Part shown: positions 50,223 through 57,341 of the stretch, one piece after another
How the letters are laid out: every line of letters starts with the position of its first letter
How positions within the stretch are numbered: position 1 is the stretch's first letter
Assembly: GCA_020073215.1 (NCBI GenBank)
Contig: JAIQFO010000001.1
Location: 62,001-126,000 of the forward strand
Length of the DNA stretch: 64,000 nucleotides
DNA from: Terriglobia bacterium
GTDB lineage: Bacteria > Acidobacteriota > Terriglobia > Terriglobales > Acidobacteriaceae
Direction of reading: 5' to 3'
Made by a program: the position numbers and the translations under genes
Notes under the pieces: model-generated
Databases searched by the model: none
The model's input: only the letters and a program-made list of their open reading frames with translations
What the model was told of the DNA's origin: nothing

Positions 50223-50447
50223 ATGAATCGAGTCAGCCTATTAGATAACTGGGAATGTTGAGACACCCACGTTCTGATGTGGGAAAAAGGAACGGACTGT
50301 GGACGAGGGTGGGCCACCCGGCCCTCATTCAGTGATAATACGGTCCGCCCACTCCACCATCGACACGAAGACAGCCGGACTGCCGAATTTTGCTCCCCAT
50401 TGGTTCAAGTCTGCTTCCGTGACCCCACGGGCCCGGGAACAGGCTCC

Positions 50448-51586: not shown

Positions 51587-53341
51587 CTAATAATGAGCTG
51601 ACATCGCCTTCTGAAAATCGTCTGCGGTGGTGCGATAACACGGCAGGACCAGGTTCAGATCGAAGTCACGCAACGCGGCTGGGAGCTTTGGGTACTTTGT
51701 GGTTGCGCGAGCTGGATCGGAGTAAGGTTGCAGTATACGGCTCAATGACTCCTTACAGCTCGGATCTGGGGTCACCCGCAGCTTGATTACCCTCGTCGGC
51801 ATTTTGTTGAAATCATATTCAGACAGTCGCCGTTGATAGGGAAGAAATTCATAGACCAGTTTTATGAGGTGCATTTGATCTTTGCCGACCCCTCCCTTGG
51901 CGACGAAGATCTCGAAATTGGAAAAATAAGAGGTGCCCGGCGCGGCAAACACCAGCCCAAGCGAACCGAGGGGCAGCTCTTCGATGGTAGATTTGTTTTC
52001 TTTGTTGCCGGACGGTGTGGGGGAAGCGTCGCCAACCGGCAGGGGATCCATTGGCTCCAACACCTTTCCCGGTCCACTCGCATCAGGGTTGCCCGCGCCC
52101 ACGACTGATCGAGGAGGAGGCGCGATCTGTGAGCCATCTTCGGACAGCGACCCTAAGCGTCCAGCCGTGCCGGAGTTGCCCGCACTGGCAACTGATGGTG
52201 GAGGTGGAACGACTTGTGAGCCACCTCCGGAAACAGAGCCCAATCTCGTTCCTCCCCCAGGGCCGCCGATGCCCTGAACCGAAGGCGGCGGCGCTACAAC
52301 CTGTGGGCCTATAGGGGACGGCCAGTTTTCGGAAATGCGATCGTTCCCAACCGGACTGCGGGCGCTTTCAACCAAGGGAGGCGGCGGTACAATTTGCGAA
52401 CCTGCACCAGCCATCGAACCCAACCGCGCAACTCCAGCAGAGTAGCCCGCACCTGGGGCTGACGGCGGAGGGGCTACAACATTCGGCTCCGCCCCGGACC
52501 ATGAACCCACCCCTGAACTCAACCGCCCTGCTCTTGACGAGTTGCCTGCGTCCTGAACCGATGGAGGAGGCGGCACAACCGCCATACCACCCGCATTGGG
52601 CGCTTTCATGGCCCGGGGCGCGGAAGACCCTCCAAGCTCGGGCGCAGGACCAACCGCGGATGCTTGAGGCAGCGCCAGCGGGTGCGCCGCAGCCTGGTCA
52701 AGCTGGGGCGGCGGACCCACAACCCCGGGCGATCCCGCCAACGCATTCCCCCGTAAGCCCGCAGCAGCTGAGAACGGAACCATAGGTGCGACCGCCTGGG
52801 AACCCACGAGGTTCGGCAGTTTGGCCGTGGCCTGCTTGATGTCAGGCGGTGTGACGATGCCCGGCCTGTGCTCTGGCGTCACCGGCATCGCCGGTTGATG
52901 TGCCGCCGCTTGCTGCGATGAAGCTTCCTTCACTCGCGAGCGCGCCCGAACGCTTGGCGCTCTGCTCTCAACTGCAGGAAAGGAATAACCAACCGGGTAA
53001 GTGAGAGACCTGCGGGATGCATCTTGCTGTGAGAACGGTTTTACTTGCACCCATACTCTGGATTGGCTCCATACGAACAGAACAATGAGCAGTAAATGAC
53101 ACAGTGTTGACTCCAGGATGGAAGACCAGCGAGCTCCGGAGGGGACGAAAACGTCGTTCCAGAAACGTGCGGGCCGTGAGGTGACAGGGATCTGCGGGGC
53201 TGGCCGCAACAGGAGCAGGTCCGCCAGATTGCGGAAGAACACACGATGGCGCGGTTCCAGTTCGATCAGCAGCCGGAGAGGGGGCAAGGGGCCTGAGCGC
53301 GGAACCCTCTGGTTCGCAATGAAAACCCCGGAGTCTCTGTT
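51587..53341 (-). CDS. Proline-rich repeat protein with N-terminal TM anchor
   Basis: TM segment SILESTLCHLLLIVLFVWSQ; about six 29-34-aa repeats with core VVxPPPSVxxAG...RLGSxxGxGSQ. Confidence 0.75.
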   Translation of the reverse strand, partial: NRDSGVFIANQRVPRSGPLPPLRLLIELEPRHRVFFRNLADLLLLRPAPQIPVTSRPARFWNDVFVPSGARWSSILESTLCHLLLIVLFVWSQSRVWVQVKPFSQQDASRRSLTYPVGYSFPAVESRAPSVRARSRVKEASSQQAAAHQPAMPVTPEHRPGIVTPPDIKQATAKLPNLVGSQAVAPMVPFSAAAGLRGNALAGSPGVVGPPPQLDQAAAHPLALPQASAVGPAPELGGSSAPRAMKAPNAGGMAVVPPPPSVQDAGNSSRAGRLSSGVGSWSGAEPNVVAPPPSAPGAGYSAGVARLGSMAGAGSQIVPPPPLVESARSPVGNDRISENWPSPIGPQVVAPPPSVQGIGGPGGGTRLGSVSGGGSQVVPPPPSVASAGNSGTAGRLGSLSEDGSQIAPPPRSVVGAGNPDASGPGKVLEPMDPLPVGDASPTPSGNKENKSTIEELPLGSLGLVFAAPGTSYFSNFEIFVAKGGVGKDQMHLIKLVYEFLPYQRRLSEYDFNKMPTRVIKLRVTPDPSCKESLSRILQPYSDPARATTKYPKLPAALRDFDLNLVLPCYRTTADDFQKAMSAHY

Positions 53342-53454
53342 CATCGGATACGCGCCGGAGGGAGAAGAAGAAACTGCCCGATTATAGCGCCATTTCACAG
53401 CGCGCGATGGATACCCCTCCGATACGGTCTTCCAGAATCAAAGACTTAGCGGGA

Positions 53455-53732: not shown

Positions 53733-54176
53733 CTAGCGGTTGAGAGCGTAGGTAACGCGGATTTCCGTTTCAACCTCCACTGGTTCGCCGTTTAACAAGT
53801 ATGGTCTGTACCGCCATTTCTTCACGGCCTTGATGGAGGAAGGAATCAGTTCCGTCGGCCCCGAAGCGGCTGTGAGATCTTCAATCTTGCCTTTTTTGGA
53901 GATAGAAGCACACAACACAACGGTGCCTTCGATGTGTGCTTTTCGGGCAGTTGTCGGATAAGACGGATTCACTTTGTGAATGAGCAAACCTTTGGTGACG
54001 CCACCTTCTACACGAACGAACTTGTCGGCGTCGTGACCCACACGGCAGGGGGAGTTCGCCAGGTCCGCGCCGTTGGCGGAATTATCGGGGTTCGCGGGCG
54101 ACTGCTGCGCAAACCCGGTGCCCGCCGCGGCCAAACACAGAACGACCGAAAGAAAGCCTGACGACAAAGTTCGCAT
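53733..54176 (-). CDS. TonB C-terminal domain protein (energy-transducer TonB-like)
   Basis: HKVNPSYPTTARKAHIEGTVVLCASISKKGKIEDL...AVKKWRYRPYLLNGEPVEVETEIRVTY. Confidence 0.9.
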   Translation of the reverse strand: MRTLSSGFLSVVLCLAAAGTGFAQQSPANPDNSANGADLANSPCRVGHDADKFVRVEGGVTKGLLIHKVNPSYPTTARKAHIEGTVVLCASISKKGKIEDLTAASGPTELIPSSIKAVKKWRYRPYLLNGEPVEVETEIRVTYALNR

Positions 54177-54282
54177 GGCGAGCGAGTATATCAGGCAGGG
54201 GACACTTCGGCAGGCCACCCGGCATTCAGTTTTTTTTTTGCGCTTCTGCCCCGTCGTCGTACGAGAAGTGGGCCACCCGCCC

Positions 54283-55863
54283 CTACTGGGTGACCGAAGC
54301 CTCTGCTAACCCCGATAGATCGGGTGTAAATCTGTGGGGATAGACTAGTAGGAACGGAAATAGGAGCTCGGGGAACCTTTTCGTAAGCAAGAGGTCCAAG
54401 GGCGGTTTGCGGGTTGATGATTCTACGAGCGTCTGCCATTGCTCGGGCTGCCCGAATGGAGAGGTTACAAGCGTTCCCGTTTTTGCTCTCCAAAGATACA
54501 GGTCTGATATGGTGTCGGGGACAAATTCATTGCTCATCACAGCAGTGATGTCGTACCAGAGCGATCTCAAGAGTTGTTTTCTTTCCCGTCGACATAGAAA
54601 GGCGACTAGGCTTCTTAAGGAATACGAGACGCCGAGAAAACCTTGCTTAGGTCCGAAGATATCTTCCCGCATGAACATCCCGCGCAGCAGAATGTCGGGT
54701 CCGTAATACGGATCTGGGAAGCCAGGAGCGACTTCGCCTGAGTTGATCTTGGTGATTAAATGGATGATCTCCGCGGCAATCTGAACGGCCATTCCTTCCT
54801 GTCCGCGTAACCAGAGAAGAACCATGACAGCGTAGTAGCTCGGAACGGCACTCTCACCCCACAATCTGCCCTGATTGAGGCTCTTGCTGATTCTAGAGAA
54901 AATTTCATTCTCATAGTCGAGGATTGTGTTCTTCGCCCTCTTGTACAGTGCAAATGCCGCGAGCTGGCCGAGCACCAGCGCCGTCCGAAAGTTGACCGTG
55001 TCACCATCCACAAACGGATTGCCCTCAACCCAGCTCTTCCTTTCGAGAGACTCCTTGACCAGGGCCTCCACGGATTGTTCCCAGGCTTGAATGCAGAGTT
55101 CGATAGAAGGGAGCCATACTGGCTCGTACGATCTTACTTTCTCCGCGAGTCTTAACAGGTGGGCGATCACAAGCATCCAGCCTTCCGACAGTGCGAAGTT
55201 ATTGCCAGCCCGCTGAGGTCCACTCAGCGCGTAACTTGCAAGAAGGGCGGTAGCCGAAAAGGTCCTTCGCAACTCCGTCCTCTTAACTTCCGCAGCAAGC
55301 GGAAGCAGGTTCTCGAGAAAGGCTGCGAAGTCCTCTTTATGGAGAGGTTCCCTCTTATCCCGCAGGAGGATGCGCAGGAAAAGTTCGAAGTCTGCTGGAG
55401 TTCGCGGAAGAAAGGTTCCCTGCGCCTTAACAAACATCTCAAGGAGTTGCCACTTCGTGATCAATTCCAGTGGGGTGTGTCCGTTGCGCTTCCATCCCCC
55501 TTGGCGGTCCGTAATCTCCCTGCGGACGGGATCGGTAATGGCACCGTTAGTTACCAGCACGGGCCGGAACTTTGCAGCCTGCGGGATATTTGGGTGCTGT
55601 ATCGGAAGCTCAACAAGTTCTTCCACTTCTCCGCGAATGGTGCGGCGCCAGTTTGATAGGTCGATGTTTTCTGACTTCAGCTGATAGGCATAGTGAGTTC
55701 CGTGCTTATCGGTGGCAATGACGTCTTTACCTTGTTCCATTTGGCCGTGGGATGAGACATGATGAATCCGGAATCCTTCGCTCAATAGAACTTGGCAGAA
55801 GGCGAACTGATATTCGCGCTCGGTCGTGCTATCCAACCAATTTTCTATTACTCTCTCGATCAC
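54283..55863 (-). CDS. Putative PD-(D/E)XK (Mrr-like) nuclease fused to a large helical domain
   Basis: SEGFRIHHVSSHGQMEQGKDVIATDKHGTHYAYQLKSENI: GKD...QLK pattern, then ~380 aa helix-rich C-terminus. Confidence 0.6.
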   Translation of the reverse strand: MIERVIENWLDSTTEREYQFAFCQVLLSEGFRIHHVSSHGQMEQGKDVIATDKHGTHYAYQLKSENIDLSNWRRTIRGEVEELVELPIQHPNIPQAAKFRPVLVTNGAITDPVRREITDRQGGWKRNGHTPLELITKWQLLEMFVKAQGTFLPRTPADFELFLRILLRDKREPLHKEDFAAFLENLLPLAAEVKRTELRRTFSATALLASYALSGPQRAGNNFALSEGWMLVIAHLLRLAEKVRSYEPVWLPSIELCIQAWEQSVEALVKESLERKSWVEGNPFVDGDTVNFRTALVLGQLAAFALYKRAKNTILDYENEIFSRISKSLNQGRLWGESAVPSYYAVMVLLWLRGQEGMAVQIAAEIIHLITKINSGEVAPGFPDPYYGPDILLRGMFMREDIFGPKQGFLGVSYSLRSLVAFLCRRERKQLLRSLWYDITAVMSNEFVPDTISDLYLWRAKTGTLVTSPFGQPEQWQTLVESSTRKPPLDLLLTKRFPELLFPFLLVYPHRFTPDLSGLAEASVTQ

Positions 55864-56425
55864 GCCATTCTTCTCGTTTTCTGCTCAGTATTTCTTTCTT
55901 TCTTCGCTTTAGCCCCGGATCGTTCTCCCACTCCACGATTTTCGTCTGAATTGCCTGCAGCATGTCCGGATGGAGGACGAGCGTTGGCATGATCGGGTTA
56001 TTGTTTTGGTCGAAGTCAATTTGCATTTTCTCGAGCATGTCCAACAACATGCTCATATGAAAGGGCTTCCCGCGAGCGTCAAGAGCATTGCCGACTTCGG
56101 AGGTAGCTTCTTCGACAGCAGAGAACATCATCTTCTCGGACTGCTGCGCGAGATTGAGGGCTAACTCCTGAAGCTTGTTTTTGGCCTGTTCTTTCATCTC
56201 CTCAGAGCCAAGGTTAGCTGCTATCTCCAGGCGGGACCCGATCGTCTTAAAAGCGCTTGTGCGAAGTTTGCCATCCTGGTCTCGAATTGCAGACTTGTCG
56301 CCCTCGTGTTGTCGGGTTTGCTTTACTTGGGATATGACCGGTGCGTGCTTATCAATTTCCGCATAGAGACTGCGAATCTGCGCTTTGTGGATCGAATTCT
56401 TAACCTTAGGGAAGTCTGGGAGCAT
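55829..56425 (-). CDS. 198-aa helical/coiled-coil hypothetical protein upstream of and overlapping the nuclease gene
   Basis: Intact ORF, charged helical composition, ~35 nt overlap with the next gene. Confidence 0.7.
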   Translation of the reverse strand: MLPDFPKVKNSIHKAQIRSLYAEIDKHAPVISQVKQTRQHEGDKSAIRDQDGKLRTSAFKTIGSRLEIAANLGSEEMKEQAKNKLQELALNLAQQSEKMMFSAVEEATSEVGNALDARGKPFHMSMLLDMLEKMQIDFDQNNNPIMPTLVLHPDMLQAIQTKIVEWENDPGLKRRKKEILSRKREEWRDRESNRKLVG

Positions 56426-56555: not shown

Positions 56556-56656
56556 GGACTGATCGCACCATGGGCTTTGCCTAACTTACCTTTGTGAAGC
56601 GTTGGCTTAGCTTTAACTCTCTTCTCGCGCCTTTCGAGAAGTGGCTTATACCGCGA

Positions 56657-56986
56657 CTATCCAGAAAGCGAATTCGCAGCCGCCATGGAGGCGGGACGGA
56701 CTTCTCTTTCGATGGTGCGCGACAACCTCTCCTCTGCGACCTCTAGATCGTAGGCAGTCTGAAGGTTCATCCAGAATCCGGCGCTGGTATTGAAGTACCG
56801 GGCCAAGCGCAGGGCCGTGTCCGGAGTGATCCCGCGGCGTTCGTGGACAATCTCGGCGATTCGCGTGACCGGCACTCTCAAGTCGAGCGCCAGGCGGTTC
56901 ATGCTGAGTTGGAGCGGCTCCATGAACTCGGCGCGCAGAATCTCGCCGGGATGGATCGCGGGAAGAAGTTTTTGGGACTTCGCCAT
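56657..56986 (-). CDS. higA: HigA-family XRE-HTH antitoxin
   Basis: IHPGEILRAEFMEPLQLSMNRLALDLRVPVTRIAEIVHERRGITPDTALRLARYFNTSAGFWMNLQ. Confidence 0.96.
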   Translation of the reverse strand: MAKSQKLLPAIHPGEILRAEFMEPLQLSMNRLALDLRVPVTRIAEIVHERRGITPDTALRLARYFNTSAGFWMNLQTAYDLEVAEERLSRTIEREVRPASMAAANSLSG

Positions 56987-57062: not shown

Positions 57063-57341
57063 CTAGTGGTAGTCCACGATCTCGACGTCGTGGGCATTTC
57101 CGTCACGCCACACAAAACAAAGACGCCACTGGTCGTTGATCCGGATACTGTGTTGCCCTCTCCGATCGCCGCGCAACGCTTCCAAACGGTTCCCCGGCGG
57201 TGCTGCCAGATCGCGCAACTCGGTAGCGCTGTCCAACTGCCGGAGCTTTCTGCGGGCGGCCTGCTCCACGGCGCGAAAGCGACGACTCGGCTGCCGGCGG
57301 TGAAGTCGCTCGGTATCCGCACAGCGGAACGACCTGATCAC
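57063..57341 (-). CDS. higB: HigB/RelE-family toxin (GTG start)
   Basis: MIRSFRCADTERLHRRQPSRRF...HSIRINDQWRLCFVWRDGNAHDVEIVDYH. Confidence 0.94.
   Translation of the reverse strand: MIRSFRCADTERLHRRQPSRRFRAVEQAARRKLRQLDSATELRDLAAPPGNRLEALRGDRRGQHSIRINDQWRLCFVWRDGNAHDVEIVDYH

Follow-up and report, generated by a model that had tools for sequence, protein, structure and literature searches.

The window analysed here (a stretch of 64,000 nucleotides from a 5.6 Mb genome, G000) contains two overlapping genes, one for a predicted nuclease of 526 amino acids and one for a protein of 198 amino acids. They raise the question of whether such a pair is an undescribed defence cassette (an effector nuclease with a sensor or adaptor), as the original prediction proposed, or a form of a system that is already known. 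The features on which the answer depends are the following, in window coordinates:

54283–55863, minus strand: 526-aa nuclease gene, an uninterrupted ORF with a GTG start; OloB-like PD-(D/E)XK (Mrr-type) with a helical C-terminal domain
55829–56425, minus strand: 198-aa partner gene, an uninterrupted ORF with an ATG start; the upstream gene of the pair
55829–55863, minus strand: 35-nt dual-frame overlap, encoding the partner tail RESNRKLVG and the nuclease start VIERVIENWLD
55832–55858, minus strand: C-terminal tail of the partner, basic and conserved (RESNRKLVG, with R194 and L196 invariant)
55429–55863, minus strand: nuclease catalytic domain, residues 1–145 (secondary structure of the model; Foldseek to NucS/EndoMS; matched by the OloB model)
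55723–55731, minus strand: G45-K46-D47, the predicted catalytic Asp motif, invariant in 32/32 aligned homologues
55675–55683, minus strand: Q61-x-K63, the (E/Q)xK half of the PD-(D/E)XK site; K63 invariant, Q61 nearly so
54286–55416, minus strand: all-helical C-terminal domain, residues ~150–526 (AF2 model; aligned with the same region of OloB)
56657–56986: HigA (PF01381)
57063–57341: HigB (PF05015, E 7.5e-16)
56628: end of DNA similarity to the HigBA–fumC locus of genome G020, with the pair beyond (sequence comparison)

Reality and distribution of the gene pair

Both reading frames are intact on the minus strand, in different frames and with an overlap of the predicted length, and the motifs that had been quoted from their products (EGFRIHH and EQGKDVIATDKHGTHYAYQLK in the nuclease, MPTLVLHPDMLQAIQTKIVEWENDP as the partner tail) are all present. 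Direct searches of Pfam, PADLOC, NCBIfam and the PDB sequences with the window proteins gave nothing significant, and a scan of genome contigs with the single nuclease protein gave no relatives. An alignment query of four nucleases (that of the window, those of genomes G001 and G047, which are full-length and 36–38% identical to it, and one from a Rhodococcus plasmid, where it is annotated "restriction endonuclease") did recover them, yielding 35 loci in GTDB genomes, 31 of which (L009–L039) encode full-length relatives. Four loci (L040–L043) and a viral-contig locus (L044) were left out of the membership because they share the nuclease motif only in part; no partner-like gene was seen upstream at these weak loci. 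The nuclease family comprises about 33 homologues from more than ten phyla, with members in bins of Acidobacteriota, Chloroflexota, Actinomycetota, Pseudomonadota, Planctomycetota, Kiritimatiellota, Poribacteria, Eisenbacteria, Bacteroidota, Ignavibacteriota, Thermodesulfobacteriota, Myxococcota and others; since many of these are MAGs, single taxon assignments (notably Nitrososphaerota for L011 and "Bacillus" for L036) may be binning or labelling errors. Cultured members include Terrabacter tumescens and Roseomonas nepalensis.

The two genes stay together. A small gene (~195 aa) lies directly upstream of the nuclease in 32/32 testable homologues and is the same partner each time, as expected of a co-conserved second gene; in every one its stop codon is 32–44 nt inside the nuclease gene, with a constant frame relation. 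A partner profile matches 32 of the 33 member loci (the exception, L037, starts at a contig end), and it finds the Rhodococcus plasmid partner, which was outside its training set, with E 2.6e-29. Nuclease and partner protein distances correlate within each of two subfamilies (r 0.81 and 0.80, Mantel p 0.0005). Third-codon-position identity is 0.86 in the partner frame and 0.81 in the nuclease frame inside the overlap, compared with 0.35 and 0.39 outside it, a rise that dual coding predicts. Both genes are under purifying selection, with dN far below dS in the closest pairs, where dS is near saturation; for L013–L016 dN and dS are 0.17 and 2.1 for the nuclease and 0.17 and 0.86 for the partner. 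The homologues in many phyla, the recurring two-gene layout and the low dN relative to dS together argue that these are real genes rather than chance ORFs. The constant frame relation prompted us to consider a programmed frameshift that fuses both proteins, but the aligned overlaps have no common slippery site and a fused gene is present at 0/32 loci. The fixed 35-nt dual-coding overlap can serve as a sequence signature for locating the pair.

The distribution of the pair is sparse, patchy and mobile-like. Within the genus the nuclease is present in two of 24 genomes (mutual identity 38%), and across the phylum in very few of 396. The pair was not found in phages, IMG/VR giving a single weak partial match.

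Predicted structures of the nuclease and its partner

The AlphaFold2 model of the nuclease (built from 32 alignment rows; pLDDT 91.3, pTM 0.93) has a nuclease domain of ~145 residues followed by an all-helical domain, in keeping with the helix-rich C-terminus read from the sequence at the outset. E15, H39, G40, E43, G45, K46, D47 and K63 are invariant among 32 aligned homologues and give a D...(E/Q)xK pattern, and predicted strands 32–36, 48–51 and 57–63 lie at or beside D47, Q61 and K63. The Pfam Mrr_cat model (PF04471) is reached by nine of the 32 homologues at E<=0.01, the window nuclease itself falling below its threshold in the Pfam search, and the best structural matches in the PDB are to NucS/EndoMS (Foldseek probability 0.95–0.99, E above 0.1). 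Judging from the model, we are confident that the window nuclease has the predicted restriction-endonuclease fold (PD-(D/E)XK, Mrr-type) with a D...(E/Q)xK core, and the original assignment to this class therefore stands.

That nothing matches the C-terminal part holds for Pfam, NCBIfam and PDB sequence searches but not for profile–profile comparison, where this part aligns with OloB. Olokun (OloA–OloB) is reportedly a two-gene anti-phage system, described by Millman and colleagues in 2022. Among the PADLOC models for Olokun (PDLC03925/PDLC03926), that for OloB matches 11 of the 32 members (best E 1e-10) and does not match the window nuclease itself; these matches led us to retrieve genuine OloB loci from Pseudomonadota for comparison. 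Aligned with genuine OloB by hhalign, the window nuclease family gives a probability of 98.9% and E 2.5e-17 over 435 columns, and as the alignment covers residues 3–460, the nuclease domain and most of the helical part are homologous to OloB. At the level of sequence profiles, then, the nuclease is shown to be a remote, nearly full-length homologue of OloB.

The partner belongs to no Pfam, NCBIfam, PADLOC or PHROG family. Its AF2 model (pLDDT 86.7, pTM 0.68) consists, in order, of an N-terminal helix, a beta-hairpin (residues 44–58), a 38-residue helix (74–111) that is closed by the invariant G112, and C-terminal helices; a fold search of the PDB gave no match. Its tail, which had looked conserved in the single sequence, is so across the alignment, where the family reads RESNRKLVD/G and R194 and L196 do not vary. 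Matches of the partner to Csm2 and a HAN nuclease (E 0.01) most likely reflect chance similarity between helical stretches; that to Csm2 is confined to one member.

Surroundings of the pair

HigBA lies beside the pair, as the original prediction had it, but this adjacency is incidental. In G020, another genome of the genus, HigBA stands beside fumC without the pair; the HigBA–fumC block there is 85% identical to the window, and the similarity stops at 56628, between HigA and the pair. HigBA is thus ruled out as a part of the cassette, and the pair is an accessory neighbour to which it is not tied. Nor was the pair seen upstream of fumC in eight relatives whose stretches were read (one of these ends early at a contig end). 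The left flank is also not syntenic, so the breakpoint gives no exact empty site. In addition, G020 carries fumC in tandem, the second copy being partial (G020:C14:48448-50776).

The pair had also been described as bracketed by dispersed repeats. Short dispersed intergenic repeats (GGGCCACCCGCC and similar) do occur around it and exceed chance, with four in the window (at 50311, 53687, 54270 and 56474) versus 0.87 expected, but they are not specific to it, since the same motifs recur beside HigBA in the pair-less G020 (at L109, upstream of HigBA). This rules out cassette-specific flanking repeats; the repeats look like a genus-wide family of intergenic elements. An imperfect 17-nt direct repeat with the core CGAGAAGTGG flanks the pair as well (54255–54271 and 56628–56644), its right copy sitting on the G020 similarity breakpoint; this repeat may be due to chance. 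Nearby in the window are genes for a TonB C-terminal-domain protein (53733–54218; 28 such matches in G000 and 12–23 in relatives) and for a 603-aa proline-rich protein (51587–53398) that has no Pfam match and in which VVPPPPSV-like segments recur.

At other loci the pair has defence genes as neighbours. A scan of 143 neighbours gave 67 PADLOC families at 1e-10; because many PADLOC models are generic (one is matched by a radical-SAM protein), we counted only the DISARM and Hachiman-type matches. DISARM DrmD and DrmMI (E=0) adjoin the pair at L018, and a Hachiman-type helicase (best HamB E 4e-55) adjoins the Rhodococcus plasmid copy. The expectation that homologues would lie outside purely housekeeping contexts is borne out by these, with clear defence neighbours at few of the 32 loci only and ordinary metabolic genes at many others. 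A neighbour of the pair in G001 (L003:847-1494) carries the motif IHPFSEGTGG and was read as Fic-like.

Proposed role and relation to known systems

From the patchy distribution, the DISARM- and Hachiman-like neighbours, the plasmid carriage and the kinship with OloB, we infer that defence is the most likely role of the pair. The reading that we think probable is a mobile two-gene, Olokun-like module directed against phages (or mobile elements), in which a small subunit dedicated to a nuclease effector holds and triggers it; the two would be co-translated via the overlap, and the effector would cut DNA on infection. The partner would be a dedicated sensory or regulatory subunit, bound to the nuclease and probably to the helical C-terminal domain of the latter. 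Translation of the two would be coupled by the fixed 35-nt overlap, so that no nuclease is made without its regulator. Infection would switch the complex on, and the D47/K63 site would then cleave phage DNA, or that of phage and host alike, and so stop phage production.

Partly overlapping with this is a toxin–antitoxin module, in which the upstream protein silences the nuclease and, once lost or inactivated, leaves it free to cut the host genome, for plasmid or island maintenance and possibly abortive infection. A small gene upstream of and overlapping its effector is the layout of many type II toxin–antitoxin operons, the Rhodococcus plasmid copy and the patchy distribution would suit such a module, and the conserved charged tail of the partner could plug a site. 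We nevertheless regard it as unlikely: the effector is far larger than usual toxins and has OloB relatives classed as anti-phage; for an antitoxin the partner is large, and Pfam and NCBIfam searches found no DNA-binding domain in it; and purifying selection is similarly strong on both genes. A type IV-like restriction system, whose nuclease would recognise modified or foreign DNA directly, as Mrr does, with the partner as a DNA-binding or assembly subunit, would fit the Mrr_cat similarity, the lack of a methyltransferase in the pair and the basic character of the partner's C-terminal helix and tail; we consider it quite unlikely, as no modified-base reader domain was detected and the helical C-terminal domain gave no match to a known DNA-reading module. 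A housekeeping nuclease for DNA repair or recombination, accompanied by a chaperone, is suggested by the match of the catalytic domain to the mismatch-repair endonuclease NucS/EndoMS. It is very improbable, since the E-value of that match is weak and nothing beyond the common nuclease fold is matched, and absence of the pair from nearly all close relatives strongly disfavours an essential housekeeping role in the clade.

The partner may bear a faint resemblance to HK97-type capsid proteins. Its top viral Foldseek match is gp10B, the capsid protein of phage T7M (probability 0.91, E 0.058, TM-score 0.36); the partner's helix, beta-hairpin and long helix recall the N-arm, E-loop and spine helix of HK97-fold capsids, and its helix-(L/V)V.HP-helix recalls the conserved motif of major capsid proteins. 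Partner residues 114–164 align locally around the "(I/V)VMN" capsid motif in a diverse PF05065 (Phage_capsid) set (hhalign score 23.9, E ~0.01). Under three schemes of 200 column shuffles, 0, 1 and 0 shuffles scored higher, but a portal-protein control about equalled the score. The capsid profiles of T7, HK97, epsilon15 and phiC31 gave no signal over other phage-gene controls, direct protein searches of phages gave chance-level matches alone, and, unlike HK97-fold capsids, the partner has no significant HMM match to any capsid family. The likeness is a weak hint, and it is decidedly doubtful that a captured phage capsid gene gave rise to the partner as a shrunken protein of the HK97 fold, which would co-assemble with or mimic the major capsid protein, sense capsid assembly directly and so unleash the OloB-like nuclease, as a capsid decoy.

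Of the known nucleases, the Mrr-type restriction endonucleases (PF04471) have in common with that of the window a PD-(D/E)XK-type catalytic core. E. coli Mrr has a winged-helix N-terminus; the window nuclease lacks one and has instead a large helical C-terminal domain and a dedicated partner. LmuA of Lamassu is likewise a PD-(D/E)XK-type defence nuclease, and it appears only in weak lists (one member at E 0.004, Foldseek rank 3, not significant); none of the scanned neighbours was identified as an SMC-like LmuB.

The closest comparison is with Olokun. Both are operons of two genes, of which the second encodes the nuclease. OloB (556 residues) and the window nuclease (526) are similar in length and have in common the N-terminal nuclease motif G..D ... 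K.G. The first genes differ. The gene upstream of genuine OloB is OloA (model match E 1e-85 in L058), whose model has 596 positions and which is ~550–570 aa long in the complete loci L058 and L059; the 198-aa partner is unrelated to it by profile comparison (hhalign probability 0.2%). The OloA model has no match in the genome of the window (two control genomes gave matches), the OloA profile has none in the 33 member loci, and the partner profile has none at the Olokun loci examined. The complete Olokun loci that were read have an ATGA-type 4-nt overlap, in contrast to the 32–44 nt of the window family, and in a nuclease tree OloB and the window family, which itself splits into the two subfamilies, separate with full support. 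As kinship with OloB was found and a neighbouring OloA was not, the pair falls outside Olokun proper and is an Olokun-like variant in which the partner has been replaced. A divergent OloB of 564 aa in genome G722 (L054/L060; L060:5231-7806) follows, with a short overlap, an upstream gene of 300 aa, compared with 550–570 aa for OloA, and is possibly another partner exchange in the OloB family.

"Undescribed" consequently applies to the pair, of which a literature search (of sources other than the original Olokun paper) returned no description, and to the partner, with no known family, but not fully to the nuclease, given its relation to OloB. PADLOC 2023, NCBIfam 2026 and Pfam have no model for the pair, so genome annotation currently misses it. 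Kinship with OloB supplies no mechanism, none having been found for Olokun in the literature searched. What it does offer is a widespread second lineage that has the same nuclease with a different and much smaller partner, which separates the effector from an exchangeable input module (OloA or the 198-aa protein) and makes the division of labour between the two testable.
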